Below are positions 4,940 through 12,427 of a stretch of 29,107 nt of DNA, in pieces. This DNA comes from a virus, in IMG/VR virus record IMGVR_UViG_3300006754_003315, positions 1 to 29,107 of that record; one strand, given 5' to 3'. The translations under genes and the position numbers were made by a program. The notes under the pieces were generated by a model. That model was not told the DNA's origin. It did no database searches and saw only the letters and a program-made list of their open reading frames with translations. Position 1 is the first letter of the stretch; each line of letters begins with the position of its first letter.

Positions 4940-5221
4940 ATGGTTGCACCTAATGTAACACAAATGGCTCAAGCATATATCGCTAGTGTACGTCTGGAGA
5001 TAGATAGACATAAGCTTACTGCTGACGAGCACCGGAAGCGTTTGGCGGATCTAGAAGTACACCTAGAGGAGTGTCTTGAGGAGATCCGAAATCAAACGGA
5101 GATCCCTACCTTCTCTGATAGTAAAGATGAGAGACCGCTGAGCGAACATCACGTTGACCCTAAAGATAGGACCGAAAGCATAAAATTACCAAATCCTTTT
5201 GAGATGATCAAGAAAAAATGA
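4940..5221 (+). CDS. Hypothetical protein with helical N-terminus
   Basis: 93 residues, preceded by the ribosome-binding site AAGGAG 9 bases before the ATG. Residues 1-55 are predicted helical with a heptad-like run (IDRHKLTADEHRKRLADLEVH), likely a coiled coil; the C-terminal part is charged and probably disordered. There is no cysteine-metal motif or membrane helix. It starts a new set of short genes between the glycan cassette and ssb. Function unknown. Confidence 0.65.
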   Translation: MVAPNVTQMAQAYIASVRLEIDRHKLTADEHRKRLADLEVHLEECLEEIRNQTEIPTFSDSKDERPLSEHHVDPKDRTESIKLPNPFEMIKKK

Positions 5222-5231
5222 GATTCCAGAG

Positions 5232-5237
5232 TATAAT
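5232..5237 (+). promoter_or_regulatory. Possible -10 element (TATAAT)
   Basis: A perfect TATAAT lies in the short gap before the gene at 5284. The matching -35 position (about 5209-5214, CAAGAA) is poor, so this would need an activator or a phage-modified polymerase. The surrounding AGAGTATAAT resembles AGAGTACAAT at 13009 and 22753. Confidence 0.35.
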
Positions 5238-5283
5238 ATAGGGTGAAGACATAACACTTTTTAAAAAGAGAGGATTTTAGGAC

Positions 5284-5517
5284 ATGAAAACAGTGAATTC
5301 TGTGGACTGGCGACTACTTTTAGAGACTGACAATGACGCAAAAAAGGTCATTGGACGTTGGAGTTCTGGCCAATTAACAACCCGAGAGGCATCTAGCCAA
5401 CTCGCACATACGACCTTTGCTGGTGAATTCAGGCACCTAGTGCGTGAAAATGGCACTACTTATGGTCGTCGTTTAGCTCGGAAAGCCTTGAAGTACCGTG
5501 GCCTTTCGACCCTTTAA
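5284..5517 (+). CDS. Small basic hypothetical protein
   Basis: 77 residues, start chosen for the upstream GAGAGGATTTTAGGAC purine run. Mostly helical and basic (RRLARKALKYRG at the C-terminus), with an SGQLTTREASSQLAH segment of helix-turn-helix-like size, but no recognised DNA-binding signature. It sits immediately before ssb, separated by 31 bases. A DNA-associated or regulatory role is possible from its charge, but not shown. Confidence 0.6.
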   Translation: MKTVNSVDWRLLLETDNDAKKVIGRWSSGQLTTREASSQLAHTTFAGEFRHLVRENGTTYGRRLARKALKYRGLSTL

Positions 5518-6398: not shown

Positions 6399-6473
6399 GG
6401 TTCCGTGACCGGAAATGGCAATCGGTCTTGATTTGTAATCAAGAATATGTGGGTTCGAGTCCCATCGGAACCT
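6399..6473 (+). tRNA. tRNA-Thr(TGT)
   Basis: Acceptor GGTTCCG/CGGAACC, D stem ACCG/CGGT, anticodon stem CTTGA/TCAAG with loop TTTGTAA (anticodon TGT), T arm GTGGG/CCCAT with TTCGAGT, discriminator T. CCA is not encoded. Confidence 0.93.
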
Positions 6474-6478
6474 CTTAT

Positions 6479-6536
6479 GGGCTGGGTTGGATCTATACTA
6501 GTTGCTGCGGGGTTCGATTCCCCGATCAGTCCACCA
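6479..6536 (+). tRNA. Minimal tRNA-like RNA with encoded CCA
   Basis: A 58-base element: acceptor GGGCTGG/TCAGTCC, a perfect T arm CGGGG-TTCGATT-CCCCG, discriminator A and a genomic CCA. Only 22 bases remain between acceptor and T arm, too few for both D and anticodon arms. The canonical tRNAs here lack CCA, so its presence suggests a functional tRNA-like 3' end. It may be a processed tRNA mimic or a deletion product. Confidence 0.5.
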
Positions 6537-6550
6537 TACAAGGAGAGAAT

Positions 6551-6700
6551 ATGATTCACTGGATACTGAATAAGTTTTTTCCAGTCTGTAACGACTGTCG
6601 TTCCTTTAATATGATGGATGTTTCACCTACTTCAGAGTTTAGAACGTTTTTTCTTTGCAAGAGTTGTAGTGGCACTAACACTTATAGAGAGGGTCGGTAA
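6551..6700 (+). CDS. Small zinc-ribbon-like protein
   Basis: 49 residues. Start at 6551 follows AAGGAGAGAAT; the frame also extends upstream through two tRNA elements, which is rejected. Two pairs, CNDC and CKSC, about 24 residues apart, predict a single zinc ribbon. Its stop overlaps the next ATG (TAATG), so the two are coupled. Possible nucleic-acid or protein binding; no family recognised. Confidence 0.65.
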   Translation: MIHWILNKFFPVCNDCRSFNMMDVSPTSEFRTFFLCKSCSGTNTYREGR

Positions 6701-6864
6701 TGACTGATTGGCAAAAAGAAATACTGGAACAAGAGAGATTGATTAAGGAGCGTATGGCTAAGATAGATCATCAGATAGCTACGGCAAACTGGGCTATATA
6801 TTCTTCAGTAGTCCTTGCTGTCCTTGCTACGATGGTTGTGATTGTTGTTAAGTTCTACCTTTAA
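6700..6864 (+). CDS. Small C-tail-anchored membrane protein
   Basis: 54 residues, starting in a TAATG overlap with the zinc-ribbon gene. Residues 1-30 are a charged amphipathic helix or short coiled coil (QKEILEQERLIKERMAKID). A single membrane segment follows (YSSVVLAVLATMVVIVVKF) close to the C-terminus. This layout, with a cytosolic coiled coil and one C-terminal helix, is common in phage small membrane proteins. It ends 4 bases before tRNA-Ser. Confidence 0.65.
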   Translation: MTDWQKEILEQERLIKERMAKIDHQIATANWAIYSSVVLAVLATMVVIVVKFYL

Positions 6865-6868
6865 AAAT

Positions 6869-6953
6869 GGAAGGTATGCGAATTGGAAAGCAGACTGTTT
6901 TGAAAACAGCCGCCCCTAAGACGGGTTGATGGGTTCGAGTCCCTCACCTTCCG
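6869..6953 (+). tRNA. tRNA-Ser(TGA)
   Basis: Acceptor GGAAGGT/ACCTTCC with discriminator G (serine type). Anticodon hairpin CTGT-TTTGAAA-ACAG (TGA). A long variable region around CCGCCCCTAAGACGGG marks class II. The T loop TTCGAGT is closed by three G-C pairs. CCA is not encoded. Confidence 0.9.
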
Positions 6954-6987
6954 CTTTAAAGGGCATTATTATGAAAGGATCTTAAGC

Positions 6988-7386
6988 ATGAAGAAACTGT
7001 ACAAGTTTCATTGGGACTGCGGAAGACACGGTGATATACATGGGTTGTTTGTTGCCGAAGAAGAGGATGTAGAGCGGGCCGTAGGAGAAATAGTTTATTT
7101 TGGAGAGGCTTTAGGCAAGCACCCCGAGATCCGTGGCGAGCTTGATTGGGACGACCTAGAAGTTTTATCTGATGATCAAAAGAAGATAGAATGGCTAGTA
7201 GGGCTGATGGGGACAACAGATATTTCTGGTTCTAATCCGCTCGACTACATAAGAATTAACTGTGCCAAGTGCGGTTATGAGATTTGTGAAGACGGGGCAT
7301 GGTCTGAGCATCAAATAATCGACGAAGAATACTACTGTAAAGTGTATAATAAAGAAGACGATGAATGTCATCACGAGGTTTATTAA
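6988..7386 (+). CDS. Hypothetical acidic protein with CxxC
   Basis: 132 residues. The start ATG follows GAAAGGATCTTAAGC. The N-terminal part (MKKLYKFHWDCGRHGDIHGL) looks like a small alpha/beta domain. A late CAKCGYEIC motif plus a C-terminal CHHE could bind a metal. Strongly acidic overall. It overlaps the next ORF by one base (TAATG). Function unknown; the position inside the tRNA island may reflect early expression. Confidence 0.65.
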   Translation: MKKLYKFHWDCGRHGDIHGLFVAEEEDVERAVGEIVYFGEALGKHPEIRGELDWDDLEVLSDDQKKIEWLVGLMGTTDISGSNPLDYIRINCAKCGYEICEDGAWSEHQIIDEEYYCKVYNKEDDECHHEVY

Positions 7387-7589
7387 TGGAACATGCTATC
7401 TGGGTACTTGAAGCAATTATAAGAGGTGGTTTTAATGGTGATGATCCGCAGAATTGTCATCTAGCTCAGCTAGGACGCAACGAGCTATCTGAACTAAAGG
7501 ACTTGCTCGTCGAACTCAGAGACGAGGCTGCAAACGATGGAATGCCAGACCTAAGCGGTAGGATTCAGGCATTTATTACGGGGCTGTGA
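7386..7589 (+). CDS. Small helical hypothetical protein ending inside tRNA-Lys
   Basis: 67 residues from the ATG at 7386, which shares a base with the upstream stop; the longer start at 7365 would only deepen the overlap. Predicted all-helical and acidic (NELSELKDLLVELRDEA). The last three codons lie in tRNA-Lys, and the stop TGA is tRNA positions 8-10. Full-length translation and tRNA maturation therefore compete on the same RNA. Confidence 0.6.
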   Translation: MEHAIWVLEAIIRGGFNGDDPQNCHLAQLGRNELSELKDLLVELRDEAANDGMPDLSGRIQAFITGL

Positions 7590-7652
7590 CAGATAAGGTA
7601 ATGTACTTGACTTTTAATCAAGGCAATGTGGGCTCGATTCCCACCGGCCCCA
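7580..7652 (+). tRNA. tRNA-Lys(TTT)
   Basis: Acceptor GGGGCTG/CGGCCCC, D stem ACA/TGT, anticodon CTTGA-CTTTTAA-TCAAG (TTT), T arm GTGGG-CTCGATT-CCCAC, discriminator A. The 5' ten bases overlap the end of the preceding ORF. CCA is not encoded. Confidence 0.94.
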
Positions 7653-7663
7653 CTGTCAATCAT

Positions 7664-7735
7664 GGGCGGTTGATGAAATTGGGATCATCCTAGCCTTGCA
7701 AGCTGGTTTTACGGGTTCGAGTCCCGTACTGTCCA
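7664..7735 (+). tRNA. tRNA-Ala(TGC)
   Basis: Acceptor GGGCGGT/ACTGTCC keeps the G3-U70 pair that marks alanine. D stem ATGA/TCAT, anticodon CTAGC-CTTGCAA-GCTGG (TGC), T arm ACGGG/CCCGT, discriminator A. CCA is not encoded. Confidence 0.94.
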
Positions 7736-7736
7736 C

Positions 7737-7789
7737 TGCGGATAACCTGATCAGTGGCTACTCTTCATGGGGGTAGTCGTCCGCAACCA
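7737..7789 (+). tRNA. T-arm-less tRNA-like RNA with CAT anticodon and encoded CCA
   Basis: A 53-base element: acceptor TGCGGAT/GTCCGCA (7 bp), discriminator A and CCA. The single large hairpin GGCTACTC-TTCATGG-GGGTAGTC has a 7-base loop with U33 and anticodon CAT (Met, or Ile if modified). A small CTGATCAG palindrome sits where the D arm should be, and there is no T arm. Not a standard bacterial tRNA. Confidence 0.5.
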
Positions 7790-7905
7790 ATACGGCCTTT
7801 GAATGTAGGTCGGAACATTACCCTACCTTGGTCCTCTTTACAGAGTTAAATTGGCCAGCCAAGGTTCAGTTCAAGGGGCACGCAGGAACTCGTGAGCCTG
7901 CACAC
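7790..7905 (+). ncRNA. Structured non-coding spacer RNA before tRNA-Ile
   Basis: No ORF is supported. Several stems can form: AATGT/ACATT and GTAGG/CCTAC, which overlap and are mutually exclusive; CCTTGGT/GCCAAGG enclosing CTC/GAG; and GCAGG/CCTGC enclosing CTC/GAG. They may be processing signals or decayed tRNAs. Confidence 0.35.
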
Positions 7906-7978
7906 CGTACTCGCTGCATCGGTTATGCGGTTTTCCCTGATAAGGAAGACGTACTGTGTTCGACTCACAGGAGTACGA
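7906..7978 (+). tRNA. tRNA-Ile(GAT)
   Basis: Acceptor CGTACTC/GAGTACG, D stem TGCA/TGCG with a GG-containing loop, anticodon TTTCC-CTGATAA-GGAAG (GAT), T arm CTGTG-TTCGACT-CACAG, discriminator A. The first base C is unusual for bacteria. One extra base sits between D and anticodon stems. Confidence 0.85.
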
Positions 7979-8002
7979 CTTACTTAACAAAAGGAAGAAG
8001 AG

Positions 8003-8371
8003 ATGAATAAGAAAGACCTAAAGATTTCTTACTACAAAGGGAAAGGCCCTGGTGGTCAGAATAAGAATAAGGTAGAGACAGGATGTAGGATTGTTCATAT
8101 CCCCACAGGACTAAAGGTGGAGATAGACGAACAGCGTACCCGCAAGCAGAATCATCGCATAGCTCTTAAGCGTATCGAGGAAAAAATAAAAGAACAACAA
8201 GACGAGCAGCAGGCAGCAGAGAAGAAGGCGAGACGCGACGATAAGATTAAAAACACTCCAAGGATTCGCACATACGATTTCAAAAAGGGAATTGTCACGA
8301 ACCATACTAACGGCAAGACAGCTCCTTTGAAAGAAGTGCTAGAGAAAGGTAGGATTGATCTTCTACATTAA
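8003..8371 (+). CDS. GGQ release-factor-like peptidyl-tRNA hydrolase
   Basis: 122 residues. The catalytic loop GKGPGGQNKNK (GGQ at 17-19) followed by CRIVHIPTGLKVEIDEQRTR is the class I release-factor catalytic domain, which enters the peptidyl-transferase centre and hydrolyses peptidyl-tRNA. The C-terminus keeps PRIRTYDFKKGIVTNHT, like the end of RF1/RF2. The N-terminal domain and codon-recognition domain are absent, so it cannot read stop codons as RF1/RF2 do. That architecture resembles rescue factors (ArfB/YaeJ, PrfH relatives). The basic linker (KKARRDDKIKN) could touch rRNA. RBS AAGGAAGAAGAG precedes the ATG. With the tmRNA downstream it points to ribosome rescue. Confidence 0.88.
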   Translation: MNKKDLKISYYKGKGPGGQNKNKVETGCRIVHIPTGLKVEIDEQRTRKQNHRIALKRIEEKIKEQQDEQQAAEKKARRDDKIKNTPRIRTYDFKKGIVTNHTNGKTAPLKEVLEKGRIDLLH

Positions 8372-8388
8372 TTAAGGAGGCTGGCTCA

Positions 8389-8787
8389 ATGGCGGCACTG
8401 CTCCTATTGTTTTGTTTTGCATTACAACCCAACGAAGAAGTTGCCCTTGAAGAGACAGTAGATCTAATAGAGGTCAATCACTTTTATGATGATGAGGCTA
8501 GACTGGTCTTTGACCAAGCTATCTTCTATGACTGGTCCTGTTATTCCAACCGTTATCAAGTTAAAGCCTGGAGACTTTTGAAAGATAGATCCCAAATTCC
8601 AACGTACAATTATCAGACGGGACTTTACGAGTGTATATGGATGGATGGGAAATTACTTAGAAGAATAAAATGTAAGATAGTACGCGAGTCTTGGACCCAG
8701 GAAGATCCTGAAATACAAGAGAGGCTACTCTTACCAAAAGAATATAGAAAAGGACTAAGAAAACTTAGGGAAATAAAGAAGAAGTAG
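8389..8787 (+). CDS. Hypothetical protein with hydrophobic N-terminus
   Basis: 132 residues, strong RBS AAGGAGG. Residues 1-14 (MAALLLLFCFALQP) are hydrophobic without basic residues, so they may be a weak signal sequence or lipoprotein-like anchor (a Cys is at 9). The rest is mixed and charged, with aromatic DWSCYSNRYQVKAWRLL and a basic C-terminus (KGLRKLREIKKK). It directly precedes an HNH remnant whose frame overlaps its last codons. Function unknown. Confidence 0.6.
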   Translation: MAALLLLFCFALQPNEEVALEETVDLIEVNHFYDDEARLVFDQAIFYDWSCYSNRYQVKAWRLLKDRSQIPTYNYQTGLYECIWMDGKLLRRIKCKIVRESWTQEDPEIQERLLLPKEYRKGLRKLREIKKK

Positions 8788-8863
8788 AATACTAGAAGAG
8801 ATAAAAAAGTGTGAAGTTCTATGTGCTAATTGTCATAGAAAAGAACATAAAGCGGGCGATTAA
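8777..8863 (+). pseudogene. C-terminal remnant of an HNH endonuclease, ending in tRNA-Val
   Basis: The frame from 8777 reads RRSRILEEIKKCEVLCANCH and then RKEHKAGD. The CEVLCANCHRKEH core is the typical zinc-binding C-terminus of small phage HNH endonucleases. No start codon or catalytic N-terminal part is present: TAA at 8774 closes the frame. Its stop TAA lies at tRNA-Val positions 8-10. A second remnant of the same kind ends in tRNA-Gly at 11090. Confidence 0.7.
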
Positions 8864-8926
8864 CTCAGCGGCTAGAGTGTTTGGCTTACATCCAAATGGT
8901 CGGGGGTTCGAATCCCTCATTGCCCA
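8854..8926 (+). tRNA. tRNA-Val(TAC)
   Basis: Acceptor GGGCGAT/ATTGCCC, D stem ACTC/GAGT, anticodon TTTGG-CTTACAT-CCAAA (TAC), T arm GGGGG/CCCTC with TTCGAAT, discriminator A. The 5' end overlaps the HNH remnant. CCA is not encoded. Confidence 0.95.
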
Positions 8927-8929
8927 CTA

Positions 8930-9187
8930 CCCCGAAGGCCGTTCAATTCGACCGTGACCTTGGTGAACCTCTAGGACGGGTCGCGACCGTGTACGTTTTG
9001 GGCAGGGGACAATTTATTAGCGAAGACTACTAGGATGTGGGCTTAGAAGCAGCCATCATTTAAAGAGTGATTCCCTTCCGTAGAAAGAAGGGGGCGTATG
9101 GTAACAACCAACTCTCGCGGAAAGCATGTGCGGGGGCGTCATGCGAACATGCAGCATGGTCTTTGGCGTAGTAGCACACTGGTATAG
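8930..9187 (+). ncRNA. Structured RNA containing a 23S rRNA GTPase-associated-centre mimic
   Basis: Bases 9032-9066 match E. coli 23S positions 1054-1088 at 34 of 35 sites, as I recall that sequence, including TTAGAAGCA with A1067. Bases 9166-9183 match 1091-1108 at 16 of 18 sites, including A1095. The closing helix H42 is kept by pairing rather than identity: ACTAG (9029-9033) with CTGGT (9179-9183). A 99-base insert (9067-9165) replaces two bases in H44 and has its own stems (CCCTTC/GAAGGG, GCATGT/ACATGC, AGAGT/ACTCT). Upstream, CCCC (about 8931) can pair with GGGG (about 9005), enclosing more hairpins. In ribosomes this fold binds uL11 and recruits bL12 and translational GTPases. The boundaries are estimates; the role is unknown. 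Confidence 0.8.
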
Positions 9188-9197
9188 CTAATAACAC

Positions 9198-9272
9198 GGT
9201 GCCGTATCCCAACTGGTAGAGGAACAAGACTTAAAATCTTGTAGTTTGTGGGTTCGACCCCCACCGGCATCA
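9198..9272 (+). tRNA. tRNA-Leu(TAA), short variable loop
   Basis: Acceptor GGTGCCG/CGGCATC, D stem TCC/GGA with CTGGTAGA, anticodon CAAGA-CTTAAAA-TCTTG (TAA), T arm GTGGG-TTCGACC-CCCAC, discriminator A. The variable region is only TAGTTT, not the long class II arm usual for leucine. It starts 11 bases after the rRNA-like element. Confidence 0.92.
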
Positions 9273-9371
9273 CTAAATGAGATACCCTGATTGGCGAGGA
9301 TTGGCAATCTGGACTTGTGATATTTTAATTTGTTGGATAGACTTAATACTTAGGGGACTAGGTATTCGTTA

Positions 9372-9445
9372 GGTGTGGTATCCCAACAGGTAGAGGAGCT
9401 AAGCTCAAACCTTAGTAGTTGAGGGTTCGACCCCCTCCCACACCA
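9372..9445 (+). tRNA. tRNA-Leu(CAA), short variable loop
   Basis: Acceptor GGTGTGG/CCACACC, D arm TCCCAACAGGTAGAGGA, anticodon CTAAG-CTCAAAC-CTTAG (CAA), variable TAGTT, T arm GAGGG-TTCGACC-CCCTC, discriminator A. Same D-arm type as the TAA and TAG leucine tRNAs, so the three likely arose by duplication. Confidence 0.92.
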
Positions 9446-9450
9446 CTCAT

Positions 9451-9524
9451 GGTACGGTACGCCAACTGGCAGAGCGACTAGTTTTAGGAACTAGTGTTTG
9501 AGGGTTCGACTCCCTCCCGTACTA
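9451..9524 (+). tRNA. tRNA-Leu(TAG), short variable loop
   Basis: Acceptor GGTACGG/CCGTACT (G1-U72), D arm CGCCAACTGGCAGAGCGA, anticodon CTAGT-TTTAGGA-ACTAG (TAG), variable TGTTT, T arm GAGGG-TTCGACT-CCCTC, discriminator A. CCA is not encoded. Confidence 0.92.
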
Positions 9525-9529
9525 CTAAT

Positions 9530-9615
9530 GGAGGGTAACCAAATTGGCTACGGAAGCTGCTTGCTAAGCAGTAGCCCCTAAGACGGGTTGGCGGGTTCGA
9601 TTCCCTCACCCTCCG
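9530..9615 (+). tRNA. tRNA-Ser(GCT)
   Basis: Acceptor GGAGGGT/ACCCTCC with discriminator G, anticodon GCTGC-TTGCTAA-GCAGT (GCT). The long variable region GCCCCTAAGACGGG is shared with tRNA-Ser(TGA). T loop TTCGATT. Confidence 0.92.
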
Positions 9616-9646
9616 CTTACTTACTTGGAACTCGAAAGGACAGGAC

Positions 9647-9982
9647 ATGCCTTACATCCCACAGGAACATAGAAACTTAATAGACGATAGTATTGATGTA
9701 TTAATAGAAGATTCTCTTCACGTCCCAAAGGAAAAAAGAGGAGGTGCTCTGAACTATATCATCTGTCGATTGACGTTGGGGATTTTAGACCCTCGTGGAT
9801 ATACCGAACTAAGTAATGCGTTAGGTCATATCTCTTCTGCCGAAACTGAGATCAGACGTAGGCTCTTGGACCCGTATGAGGATAAATGCATAGTTGATAA
9901 TGGAGACTTAGATGACATTAAAAACCTGTGTGAAATTGCATTGGAGGACTTAGAACGTTCTCAAATGGGCTTGAAAAGATGA
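9647..9982 (+). CDS. Small protein resembling DUF6899-type phage proteins
   Basis: 111 residues, RBS GAAAGGACAGGAC. The pattern MPYIPQEHRNLID at the N-terminus, GALNYIICRLTLGIL in the middle and RLLDPYEDKCIVDNGDL late matches, from memory, the small DUF6899-like family, found in phages and microbes without known function (members usually show PYEDxKIxENGD). All-helical and cytosolic. The last codon region overlaps the next ATG by 4 bases. Confidence 0.7.
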   Translation: MPYIPQEHRNLIDDSIDVLIEDSLHVPKEKRGGALNYIICRLTLGILDPRGYTELSNALGHISSAETEIRRRLLDPYEDKCIVDNGDLDDIKNLCEIALEDLERSQMGLKR

Positions 9983-10167
9983 CTATCTCACAGGAATATT
10001 TTGAAGCTTTAGAGCCTTTTGACCGTGGTTACGTGGTATACTTATATGGAAGACGAGACGACGAGCCTAATATTCCTAACGAAGAAGAACCTCCTTACGA
10101 GCTAGGGAGTATAGAATACACTCAGTATCTATCTGGAAAAAGACAAGCAATTTCAGCAACAGGATAA
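9979..10167 (+). CDS. Small acidic hypothetical protein
   Basis: 62 residues, coupled to the previous gene by an ATGA overlap. Acidic and proline-rich in the middle (DEPNIPNEEEPPYELGS). No motif, membrane segment or metal site. Probably an accessory early protein. Confidence 0.55.
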   Translation: MTISQEYFEALEPFDRGYVVYLYGRRDDEPNIPNEEEPPYELGSIEYTQYLSGKRQAISATG

Positions 10168-10173
10168 TTTATT

Positions 10174-10491
10174 ATGACAGATACACTAGAAACTACTCAA
10201 CTATACCGCTTTCGCATTTGGAAAGAGGTAGGTTCCGATGAATACAGTATGGACGATGACGTTTATACGAACGAGGTTCCGCTGGAATTTATTGAGAAAT
10301 TTAATCAGTCGGGCAAGGTCTTTACTATCTTCGCAGATTCAGGATCTATTGATAATGCCGAGGGGCCTGTCCTCTTAATTCTAAGTCAAGATAAAGAAAG
10401 TATGAAGTCTTATATGGCTGGCTTTTTCTTGATGCAAAAGCTAGATGAGATATTTGAGTCTGGACTAGAAAACATAGAGATTAGAGAATAA
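10174..10491 (+). CDS. Hypothetical acidic protein
   Basis: 105 residues, acidic. Alternating strands (LYRFRIWKEV, then KVFTIFADS, then PVLLILSQD) and a C-terminal helix (SYMAGFFLMQKLDEIF) suggest a small alpha/beta fold. The RBS is weak (AGGATAATTTATT), so translation may depend on the gene 6 bases upstream. It ends just before tRNA-Arg. No family recognised. Confidence 0.58.
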   Translation: MTDTLETTQLYRFRIWKEVGSDEYSMDDDVYTNEVPLEFIEKFNQSGKVFTIFADSGSIDNAEGPVLLILSQDKESMKSYMAGFFLMQKLDEIFESGLENIEIRE

Positions 10492-10496
10492 TATTT

Positions 10497-10569
10497 GGGC
10501 GATGAGTGTGACGGAATAGCACGCTAGTCTACGGAACTAGAAGAAGGGGTTCGACTCCCTTATTGCCTA
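10497..10569 (+). tRNA. tRNA-Arg(ACG)
   Basis: Acceptor GGGCGAT/ATTGCCT, D stem GTGT/GCAC, anticodon CTAGT-CTACGGA-ACTAG (ACG, wobble A that would need deamination to inosine by host TadA), T arm AGGGG/CCCTT, discriminator A. Confidence 0.92.
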
Positions 10570-10596
10570 CTTCACTAACGTGATAAGGAGAATTTG

Positions 10597-10641
10597 ATGA
10601 ATACCTTAACTTTTGGTGAACTTGAAGAAGTGCTGTGGTAG
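10597..10641 (+). CDS. 14-codon ORF with strong RBS (leader peptide candidate)
   Basis: Reads MNTLTFGELEEVLW. It follows AAGGAGAATTTG, one of the better ribosome-binding sites in the island, and stops just where a strongly structured non-coding stretch begins. It may be a leader peptide or a truncated gene. Confidence 0.4.
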   Translation: MNTLTFGELEEVLW

Positions 10642-10852
10642 CGGGGGCGTCTATGGACGCTGTGAGCGGTTGTATGGCTTATTCGGACGCTGAAAAGTTT
10701 TCGTTAAGTCAGGATGACTAAGAGTGATGATAAGGCTCGGCATCTGTTCTAGAAGGATGCGAAATTCGGTACGTTGTAGCCGACGTTTAAATAAGAATGT
10801 GGGAGGACTTTATGAGGGTCCGTTAGTACCACCAGCCGAGGCGGGCTTTAAC
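10642..10852 (+). ncRNA. Structured non-coding stretch, function unknown
   Basis: No ORF is supported. Visible stems: GCGTC/GACGC near 10648, AGTC/GACT near 10712, GCATC/GATGC near 10740-10760 inside GGCT/AGCC, GGAC/GTCC near 10805, and CCGTTA/TAACGG (about 10820-10853) enclosing AGCC/GGGCT. The first hairpin contains GCGGGGGCGTC, also found in the insert of the rRNA-like RNA at about 9130. Confidence 0.4.
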
Positions 10853-10925
10853 GGGAGTGTGGCAGATAAGGTAATGCACTTGGCTCTTAACCAAGATAAT
10901 GTGGGTTCGATTCCCACCGCTCTCA
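10853..10925 (+). tRNA. tRNA-Lys(CTT)
   Basis: Acceptor GGGAGTG/CGCTCTC, D stem GCA/TGC, anticodon CTTGG-CTCTTAA-CCAAG (CTT), T arm GTGGG-TTCGATT-CCCAC, discriminator A. Close in sequence to tRNA-Lys(TTT) at 7580, a likely duplicate. Confidence 0.94.
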
Positions 10926-10950
10926 CTGAAACGTTGATAAACGGACATAG

Positions 10951-10975
10951 GTGGGTTCGATTCCCACGCAGATCA
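10951..10975 (+). pseudogene. Orphan 3' tRNA half
   Basis: T arm GTGGG-TTCGATT-CCCAC followed by GCAGATC and A has the layout of a tRNA 3' end. The complementary 5' acceptor strand (GATCTGC) is not found nearby; only a small CGTT-GATA-AACG hairpin precedes it. Likely a recombination remnant of a Lys-type tRNA T arm. Confidence 0.55.
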
Positions 10976-10990
10976 TAGGCTGACGGGCCT

Positions 10991-11090
10991 ACCTCAAGAC
11001 GTTGGGGGCGTTTCCAAAATCTTCAAAGAAATTGAAAAATGTGTAGTTCTATGTGCCAACTGTCACGCAAAGGAACATTGGCAAGATTAG
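10991..11090 (+). pseudogene. C-terminal remnant of a second HNH endonuclease, ending in tRNA-Gly
   Basis: After a TGA in the same frame at 10982, the frame reads KIFKEIEKCVVLCANCHAKE, then HWQD and stop TAG at 11088-11090. CVVLCANCHAKEH is the HNH C-terminal zinc motif. The catalytic region is missing. The stop is formed by tRNA-Gly positions 8-10, as at the first remnant. The two remnants share sequence but are not identical. Confidence 0.68.
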
Positions 11091-11151
11091 TTTAGTGGTA
11101 AAACATTTGACTTCCACTCAAAGGTCATCGGTTCGATTCCGATATCTTGCA
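11081..11151 (+). tRNA. tRNA-Gly(TCC)
   Basis: Acceptor GCAAGAT/ATCTTGC, anticodon TTTGA-CTTCCAC-TCAAA (TCC), T arm ATCGG-TTCGATT-CCGAT, discriminator A. The D arm TAGTTTAGTGGTAAAAC is the usual glycine type. The 5' ten bases overlap the HNH remnant. Confidence 0.95.
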
Positions 11152-11169
11152 CTCTATAAAGGTGATGTA

Positions 11170-11499
11170 ATGAAGAAGCTACTTTTAATCTTGTTCTTTT
11201 TCTTTGTCCAATTGATGTTCTTTTCCCTTGGCTTCTTTGCAAGCGATGCCTTTGGTCAGCACCATCACAACGGACACTGGCACGCACATCCCCACGCAGG
11301 GCTACACAGGCATGGGCCTGTGATCGCCTATCGCCCAGTTGTTACTTGGTATCCAACCGGGACATACATGAGTATCGGGCCAACTTACATCTCGCCACAG
11401 AGGTATGTAAGATTTGGCGTTAATGTTAATTTTTCTCAGTACCGGGGATATAGTACGTTCGATTTTAGAGCTGGAAAAACACGGTACTATCGGAGGTAG
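11170..11499 (+). CDS. Exported histidine-rich small protein
   Basis: 109 residues from the ATG at 11170; an upstream extension to 11053 would read through tRNA-Gly and is rejected. A clear signal peptide covers residues 1 to about 28 (MKKLLLILFFFFVQ, then a cleavage region near SDAFGQ). A His-rich stretch follows (HHHNGHWHAHPHAGLHRHG), able to bind Zn, Ni or Cu. The remainder is Tyr/Arg-rich beta-type sequence. Likely periplasmic or cell-surface; role unknown (metal handling or envelope modification are guesses). Confidence 0.7.
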   Translation: MKKLLLILFFFFVQLMFFSLGFFASDAFGQHHHNGHWHAHPHAGLHRHGPVIAYRPVVTWYPTGTYMSIGPTYISPQRYVRFGVNVNFSQYRGYSTFDFRAGKTRYYRR

Positions 11500-11503
11500 T
11501 ATT

Positions 11504-11695
11504 ATGAATACTATTAATGTTGCACTTAAGTGCGGTAAGACATTCGAACATAAGAATGCACGCAGACGCCTACTTTCCCTTCCGTTTTGGTTGGTGATCG
11601 TAGAGCATGATGAACACGGTCATAAAATGGTACACTGGTATCAAAGACGAGAGGTTTGTCATTGGAGCAAGCAAGTCAAGGATCATAGTCATTAA
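11504..11695 (+). CDS. Small basic hypothetical protein
   Basis: 63 residues with RBS GGAGGTAG. Basic and His-rich C-terminus (EHDEHGHKMVHWYQRRE). The short hydrophobic piece LLSLPFWLVIVE is too short for a firm membrane prediction. Its last 89 bases overlap the next ORF in another frame. Function unknown. Confidence 0.55.
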   Translation: MNTINVALKCGKTFEHKNARRRLLSLPFWLVIVEHDEHGHKMVHWYQRREVCHWSKQVKDHSH

Positions 11696-11966
11696 AAACA
11701 ACAGGAAAACTCAACGACAAGATATTGTTGAGAGAGTTAGGGGCTGGTTAAAGCCTGAAGGTATCGAACTTTTCCGTGACTACTATAGAGAGTATGGCAG
11801 AGTTGATCCTGTAATCTTTAACGGGGCAGTCCCTCACCCTGTTCATTTTCGAGAGGGTATGGCTGTTAGGAATCAGATTCGCAAGATGTTTCCTGGCGAC
11901 TTTACCGATCACGAACTTGATGATATGTGGGTAGGAATTGTTAGAGAAGCAATTGAGGAAGAATAG
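11607..11966 (+). CDS. Hypothetical protein overlapping its neighbour by 89 bases
   Basis: 119 residues from the first ATG. A basic strand-rich N-terminus (RFVIGASKSRIIVIKNNRK) precedes a helical part (IVERVRGWLKPEGIELFRD) and an acidic end. The start is uncertain, because no RBS or later ATG marks a shorter form before the overlap ends. Both overlapping frames read as protein-like. The stop is immediately followed by tRNA-Gly(GCC). Confidence 0.58.
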   Translation: MMNTVIKWYTGIKDERFVIGASKSRIIVIKNNRKTQRQDIVERVRGWLKPEGIELFRDYYREYGRVDPVIFNGAVPHPVHFREGMAVRNQIRKMFPGDFTDHELDDMWVGIVREAIEEE

Positions 11967-12038
11967 GCAGCTATCGTACAAAGGCTAGTATATAACGTTG
12001 CCAACGTTGAGATCGGAGTTCGATTCTCCGTAGCTGCA
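11967..12038 (+). tRNA. tRNA-Gly(GCC)
   Basis: Acceptor GCAGCTA/TAGCTGC, D stem GTAC/GTAT, anticodon TAACG-TTGCCAA-CGTTG (GCC), T arm CGGAG-TTCGATT-CTCCG, discriminator A. It begins on the base after the preceding ORF's stop. Confidence 0.93.
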
Positions 12039-12044
12039 CTTTTA

Positions 12045-12116
12045 GAGCGAGTGGCCGAGAGGCAAGGCGTCTGACTGCAACTCAGATCTACGGGGGTTCG
12101 AATCCCTCTTCGCTCT
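12045..12116 (+). tRNA. tRNA-Cys(GCA)
   Basis: Acceptor GAGCGAG/TTCGCTC with discriminator T, the cysteine identity base. D stem GCC/GGC, anticodon TCTGA-CTGCAAC-TCAGA (GCA), T arm GGGGG/CCCTC. CCA is not encoded. Confidence 0.93.
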
Positions 12117-12122
12117 CTGTTT

Positions 12123-12427
12123 GGGGCCGACTTGGTTTCGACCTATTGGACGGATGTAAAGTTGCGTGTGGTAGTTGGTCAAAGGGCTACCTAAAAAATT
12201 GACTAACATTTAATTGCAAACGAAAACTTTGCTTTAGCTGCGTAAGCAGTAGGGGTTATCTAGCACCCTGTTAACCAAAGCTAGATACCTGTTTTGAAGC
12301 TGGACTGTAAGAGGTCATTAAACTATCCTGCCCCTTGGTCGTGCAGGGCTTAGCTCGACACAAACACGTAGACGCTTTATTGAAAACAATTAGGGACGGG
12401 GGGTTCGAATCCCCCCCGGCTCCACCA
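12123..12427 (+). ncRNA. ssrA: Transfer-messenger RNA (tmRNA)
   Basis: The tRNA-like ends are complete: GGGGCCG pairs with CGGCTCC including the G3-U70 alanine signal, the 5' part has the typical GGTTTCGAC, the T arm has GGTTCGAATCC, and A-CCA is encoded. The resume codon and tag frame at 12216-12245 read GCA onward as ANENFALAA then TAA, a standard LAA-ending degradation tag. The interior has room for the usual pseudoknots. tmRNA with SmpB frees stalled ribosomes and tags the protein for ClpXP; no smpB is seen here, so host SmpB would be used. Confidence 0.96.

Follow-up and report, generated by a model that had tools for sequence, protein, structure and literature searches.

What can a release factor do for a phage when the part that reads the stop codon is gone? 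This question is raised by a short ORF in the window, by which we mean the whole stretch of DNA that was analysed, i.e. the entire IMG/VR record IMGVR_UViG_3300006754_003315, a phage fragment of 29,107 bases. The ORF lies within a cluster of 15 tRNAs and one tmRNA that extends from 6399 to 12427. Scans of viral contigs revealed ten further distinct viral genes of the same architecture, and together with the window gene they are called class A here. The features of the gene and its surroundings are:

7906..7979, + strand, tRNA-Ile (gat), directly upstream of the factor ORF
7992..8002, + strand, Shine-Dalgarno-like AGGAAGAAGAG, purine-rich, directly before the ATG (from the sequence)
8003..8371, + strand, ORF of the compact RF1-derived factor, 122 amino acids, ATG start, stop codon included
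8003..8248, + strand, domain 3 (GGQ domain), residues 1–82 (from the predicted model and structural superposition)
8051..8059, + strand, codons of the GGQ motif, residues 17–19 (from the sequence; invariant in 11 of 11 class A proteins)
8240..8266, + strand, shortened switch-loop region, residues 80–88 (from the alignment, 9 of 9 class A rows)
8267..8368, + strand, RF1-like tail, the C-terminal half of the codon-recognition domain (domain 4), residues 89–122 (from profile, alignment and model)
8854..8927, + strand, tRNA-Val (tac), downstream of the factor ORF
12123..12427, + strand, tmRNA gene with the tag ANENFALAA (116.9 bits, full length)

An earlier note on this DNA had described the product as a release-factor catalytic domain inside the tRNA cluster that keeps GGQ and an RF1-like C-terminal segment and has lost codon recognition, and all of these points held. 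There is no room for domain 2 upstream of the ORF because only 23 bases separate the end of tRNA-Ile (7979) from the start, and a regular-expression search of the window in six frames for domain-2 start and PxT motifs gave no credible match. With the same cut also present in ten further viral genes, these findings ruled out that the ORF is an incompletely called full-length release factor. A 132-residue ORF with a hydrophobic N-terminus (8389–8787) starts 17 bases past the stop codon of the factor and matched no Pfam or PHROG family; a DUF6899 protein (62.2 bits) is encoded at 9647–9982, within the tRNA cluster, and PADLOC found nothing in this case. A very large phage is the probable source of the fragment, because the nearest relatives of its ribonucleotide reductase are found in the huge phages LR756502 (642 kb, 54%) and LR756501 (735 kb, 51%). 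The reductase gene of the latter (L036 2001–5468; LR756501 623427–630894) forms a single open frame, in which an intein-like insertion follows the cysteine at query residue 320.

To which family does the protein belong? It matched Pfam RF-1 with 86.5 bits (E 1.6e-24; cut-off 35), and its best NCBIfam model was RF1, with 90.7 and 86.7 bits over profile positions 212–332 of 347. Because the match spans these positions, the protein corresponds to no more than the final third of RF1, and the score is well below the RF1 (PrfA) equivalog cut-off of 400 bits. The NCBIfam RF2 model gave 71.8 bits. The earlier note had regarded the protein as ArfB/PrfH-like and had proposed an HMM comparison with ArfB, PrfH and RF1. 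This comparison agreed with its view that the C-terminus is RF-like rather than ArfB-like, but not with the family identity: PrfH reached 63.8 bits against a cut-off of 166.65, ArfB reached 26.8 bits against a cut-off of 100 with only residues 2–29 aligned, and the tree described below placed the protein with RF1-type phage factors. The best PHROG was phrog_19918 (64.9 bits over residues 2–113), and phrog_3122 gave 44.3 bits over residues 5–66. No PHROG is specific to class A; phrog_19918, its top score, is a family of full-length factors.

When the protein is compared with RF1, the GGQ and RTY motifs and the tail line up along its whole length. The tail aligns with RF1 domain 4 and the long helix preceding it (residues 47–84) corresponds to the RF helix, whereas domain 1 and the codon-recognition domain 2 with its PxT motif are absent and the switch loop is three residues shorter. 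With ArfB (YaeJ) and ICT1 the protein shares a standalone GGQ domain, a basic character and, as we propose below, codon-independent rescue, but an RF1-type tail stands where ArfB has its basic C-terminal mRNA-tunnel helix. PrfH (RFH) also lacks domain 1 and has a rescue-type role like the one proposed here, but it is characterized by the presence of domain 2, which is missing from the window protein as well. The phage family phrog_3122 ('RF-1 domain peptide chain release factor') likewise represents a phage-borne GGQ domain without codon reading; its members L025, L028, L075 and L087 (80–93 bits to phrog_3122) differ in having no RF1 tail. Judged by membership in these sequence families, the window protein is a compact RF1 derivative and neither ArfB nor PrfH.

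The ten further members of class A (L042, L043, L044, L090, L091, L092, L093, L094, L097 and L101) are 42–53% identical to the window protein. Columns invariant in all 11 proteins include GGQ, N22-K23, T35-G36, R45, A54, K75, R89-T90-Y91, K110 and L113, the RTY triplet lying within RIRTYDFKKGIV (residues 87–98 of the window protein). Most of the genes start at the same point, about 14–20 residues ahead of GGQ, and a Shine-Dalgarno-like stretch was visible by eye in 8 of 10 of them, being not evident for L090 and L101. The latter two (80% identity) gave a dN of 0.144 and a dS of 1.37, and the pair L043/L094 a dN of 0.207 with saturated synonymous sites (pS 0.758). Close class A pairs are under purifying selection. 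A single-protein scan of viral contigs yielded solely a near copy of the window, L002, with 2 differences in 6,733 bases.

Two deviating cases were noticed. In L093 (about 4986–5354) the codons ATG AAA CTT CGC are followed by an in-frame TAG ahead of the conserved part; no other usual start codon is present, and this is the sole class A gene with an internal stop. In L099 (1740–1952) and L100 (5001–5213), near-identical contigs of one phage, the class A tail is kept, 62% identical to residues 57–121 of class A, and the GGQ half is gone. We also searched 11 records, all of them fragments, for a second RF-1 domain: none was found in the ten class A records, and the eleventh, G021, the tail-only case, contained no RF-1 domain at all.

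A tree of domain-3 sequences was calculated for 64 of 65 proteins; the one left out, L074, is a PrfH-like fragment below the 90-residue minimum. Ten of the 11 class A proteins formed one branch (87/98), situated on the side of bacterial RF1, PrfH-like proteins and the larger phage factors, and 11 ArfB-like phage proteins stood apart (98/97); those of them that were checked are the four phrog_3122 members named above. The remaining class A protein, L044, grouped together with L086 with the ArfB-like phage proteins, although weakly (72/92). Class A as a whole corresponds to two changes on the tree and had one origin in 16% of bootstrap trees; a single origin that includes L044 is thus not supported by these sequences.

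An AlphaFold2 prediction made on the 11-row class A alignment gave a model (pLDDT 88.6, pTM 0.58) with a GGQ domain, one long helix at residues 47–84 and a small tail in which three strands are combined with two short helices. Residues 1–82 of the model superpose on RF2 domain 3 at 1.4 Å (82 residues), and the whole chain matches RF1 and RF2 on the ribosome with Z 11–12 and rmsd 5–6. Because the whole chain fits RF1 217–341 only at 5.3 Å (Z 11.7), the tail of the model is placed differently from that of ribosome-bound RF1, and domain 3 and the tail are not superposable as one rigid body. The top structural match, tied with others, was 6bok, a solved RF1 from which residues 302–304 have been deleted.

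The switch loop lies between domains 3 and 4 and couples the reading of the stop codon to GGQ placement and catalysis, as described in PMC3418547 and PMC5378476. Compared with E. coli RF1, three residues of this loop are missing in all nine aligned class A rows, by this alignment G299-S300-G301. A further difference concerns charge: the mean net charge of domain 3 is +10.4 in class A (range 5 to 15, 11 rows) versus +2.3 (0 to 5) in 15 bacterial RF1s, and that of the tail is +5.2 versus +0.4. Among the larger phage relatives the tail is just as basic (+5.1 and +5.4). The guess in the earlier note that the protein may have its own mode of recruitment fits both the three-residue deletion and the raised positive charge.

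Is the compact protein peculiar to phages? In one scan of cellular genomes we examined the best 80 of at least 592 candidate stretches. The top identity among these 80 was 40% and 76 of them lay in open frames of at least 300 residues. Of the remaining four, L125, L176 and L179 are cut by the end of a contig, and L163 (255 residues) lacks only domain 1 and keeps domain 2. No compact protein of the class A type was present among the best 80 of at least 592 candidates, a sample in which more distant forms may be missed, and on these grounds bacterial contamination or a general bacterial protein is disfavoured. As for 'phage' matches from Acinetobacter, Salmonella and Listeria, the one inspected was a host prfA-hemK segment. 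We found neither a compact phage factor of domains 3 and 4 nor a frameshift in a phage release-factor gene in the open-access literature, which is weak evidence of absence. Huge phages carry RF1 and RF2 genes beside tRNAs, tmRNA and SmpB (PMC7162821); these are also phage-borne release factors, and the compact form is not mentioned in the accessible part of that paper. The tRNA arrays of mycobacteria and mycobacteriophages hold an RF-1-domain gene and a tmRNA, for which the authors suggested extra ribosome rescue (PMC5966550); the likeness to the window factor considered here is one of neighbourhood.

Because the parts in front of the catalytic domain, including the PxT motif, have been lost, the usual way of reading stop codons is closed to class A. 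An RF1 would have lost domain 1 and domain 2, which contacts the codon, and would have retained GGQ domain 3 and the domain 4 tail; the shortened switch loop would remove the stop-codon gate. Since GGQ is intact, the gate is shortened and the positive charge is raised, the simplest interpretation is codon-independent release on stalled ribosomes, and we assign a probability of about 0.55 to the window protein being an RF1-derived compact phage factor, made of domains 3 and 4, that acts in this manner. The standalone GGQ proteins of known function, ArfB and ICT1, are rescue factors (PMC6514570), and by analogy a rescue role of the compact factor is probable. In this way ribosomes would stay available to the phage if mRNAs or tRNAs suffer damage in the course of infection. 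Several findings speak against codon-independent release as the explanation: the tail is not an ArfB-type helix and its partner domain 2 is gone; the pTM of the model is only 0.58, and its tail and domain 3 do not superpose as one rigid body; a pure hydrolase role does not explain why L099/L100 keep the tail without the GGQ half; L044 groups with ArfB-like proteins; and a partnership with tmRNA or tRNA clusters is not general.

The decoding centre would not be needed if the compact factor hydrolysed peptidyl-tRNA on split large subunits, like the mitochondrial mtRF-R (C12orf65), which acts there with MTRES1, its own tail binding the 50S subunit or a partner protein. The model matches mtRF-R on the split large subunit (7a5h; Z 8.7, 71 residues, 2.2 Å) with a quality similar to that for ArfB (6yss; Z 7.9 over 70 residues), and mtRF-R also possesses a GGQ domain with a basic C-terminal extension (PMC6514570). 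The likeness concerns the fold of the GGQ domain, which is common to all these families. The tail is, however, conserved RF1 domain-4 sequence, in RF1 a part of the region seated on the 30S subunit, and we consider this explanation unlikely.

For a large phage that encodes many tRNAs together with a tmRNA, a codon-independent compact factor would constitute a second rescue path. The earlier note had proposed such a route next to tmRNA; a tmRNA is indeed encoded nearby in the window, but the pairing is not general. A tmRNA above the cut-off occurred in 3 of the 24 records searched, which represent two distinct phages (the window with its near copy L002, and the L090 contig). The second of these, G012, contains a full tmRNA gene at 79017–79362 (113.1 bits). 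Of the 11 class A loci, 4 had tRNAs within the flanking sequence retrieved (window, L090, L093 and L101), and SmpB was present in 2 of the 24 records, both of them huge phages of our class B and neither of them class A. A link of class A with tmRNA or tRNA clusters is not general.

The larger phage relatives start at domain 2 (MI.EIRAAEGG...) and consist of domains 2, 3 and 4, with PPTE as an RF1-type PxT motif; RF1 was the best profile in 12 of 12 members scanned. Nearly all of them are interrupted by stop codons, an interruption that the window gene does not have. One scan gave 80 loci (L186–L265), 73 of them distinct after 7 duplicates were taken out; they were classed by a script and four unclassed loci were read separately. 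A +1 shift is needed in 54 of the 73, and in all 54 CTT stands directly before the stop (40 TGA, 12 TAG, 2 TAA). The slip context is often CGG AGG GGT CTT TGA, and a purine-rich triplet is found within nine bases before CTT in 44 of the 50 shift loci classed by the script. Bacterial prfB uses the same CTT-stop slip site; further relatives with such a prfB-like +1 site are L006, L013, L014, L016, L017, L019 and L050. In 16 of the 73 loci the only interrupting stops are in-frame UGA codons, one or two per gene, and three loci (L235, L242 and L246) have no interruption. The in-frame UGA codons stand at matching places in domain 2, also in L005, L008–L012, L037 and L045 (sets overlapping with the 16), and the release-factor genes of the huge phages LR756501 and LR756502 are of this kind. 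In L059 an in-frame TGA is followed by a CTT-TAG slip where others have UGA, and L051 has GTT-TGA and a +1 offset near its start. We infer recoding of the larger genes because the sequence is conserved on both sides of the stop.

Readthrough would be the simplest reading of the in-frame UGA codons. The use of TGA as a sense codon in these huge phages was rejected for LR756502, where TGA is an ordinary stop elsewhere: in 42 kb, TGA terminates 12 of 42 ORFs of at least 120 residues, the read-on past it never exceeds 28 codons, and TGG is used 136 times. Its ribonucleotide reductase has no in-frame TGA. The other class B loci are less well tested, with few TGA-ended ORFs: each locus has 1 to 5 of them, except L036 and L045, which have none. 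One of these ORFs has 305 codons of read-on and another 44. Genetic code 15 (TAG=Q) was rejected for L005 and L008–L012, in which the interrupting codon is TGA.

These interruptions also bear on the possibility that the class A protein has a modulating rather than a rescuing role, in which decoding or recruitment is provided in trans by a protein of the host or of the phage, or the factor competes with host RF1 and lowers termination. Domain 4, which normally belongs to the codon-reading superdomain, is kept without domain 2, the tail is all that L099/L100 retain, and nearly all larger phage relatives appear to be regulated at stop codons. Against this, GGQ is invariant in 11 of 11 proteins, the window encodes no domain-2 protein and the fragmentary class A records have one RF-1 domain each (10 of 11); we regard such modulation as quite improbable. 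That the gene is a decaying phage RF1 without a function of its own, as the absence of the GGQ half in a related phage and the early TAG of L093 might suggest, is very improbable given one architecture in eleven genes, mostly with the same start and in 8 of 10 with a ribosome-binding site seen by eye, dN well under dS and all catalytic residues kept.

Returning to codon-independent release, we put forward tentatively, and with more doubt than conviction, a wider proposal based on these sequences: the RF1-type family of large phages would be mostly gated at stop codons, by a CTT-stop +1 shift or an in-frame UGA, and the compact, codon-blind factor of domains 3 and 4 would have arisen from it, escaping the gate and rescuing ribosomes by a mode unlike those of ArfB, PrfH and ArfA-RF2. 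The recoded larger relatives are more surprising than the compact factor. A 2025 survey reported that TAG occurs in 0 of 8,164 prfB motifs and that prfA shows no convincing case of a programmed shift (PMC12421855), and all CUU-stop shifts in RECODE belong to prfB (PMC10885494); as far as the accessible text of these two papers goes, a phage RF1-type gene with CTT-TAG falls outside both.

The compact factor extends the known GGQ-only rescue factors by an architecture in which a catalytic domain is combined with the rear half of the domain that reads codons. It also bears on whether a hydrolase can reach the ribosome by means of domain 4 alone. Its larger relatives raise the question of why phage RF1-type genes have stop-codon gates, with UAG at 12 of 54 slip sites, and bacterial prfA none. 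If the proposal is true, phages would sense the termination capacity of the cell through their own release-factor genes, and this would include a UAG-gated control of RF1-type genes, which the accessible part of the 2025 survey (PMC12421855) did not find in bacteria.
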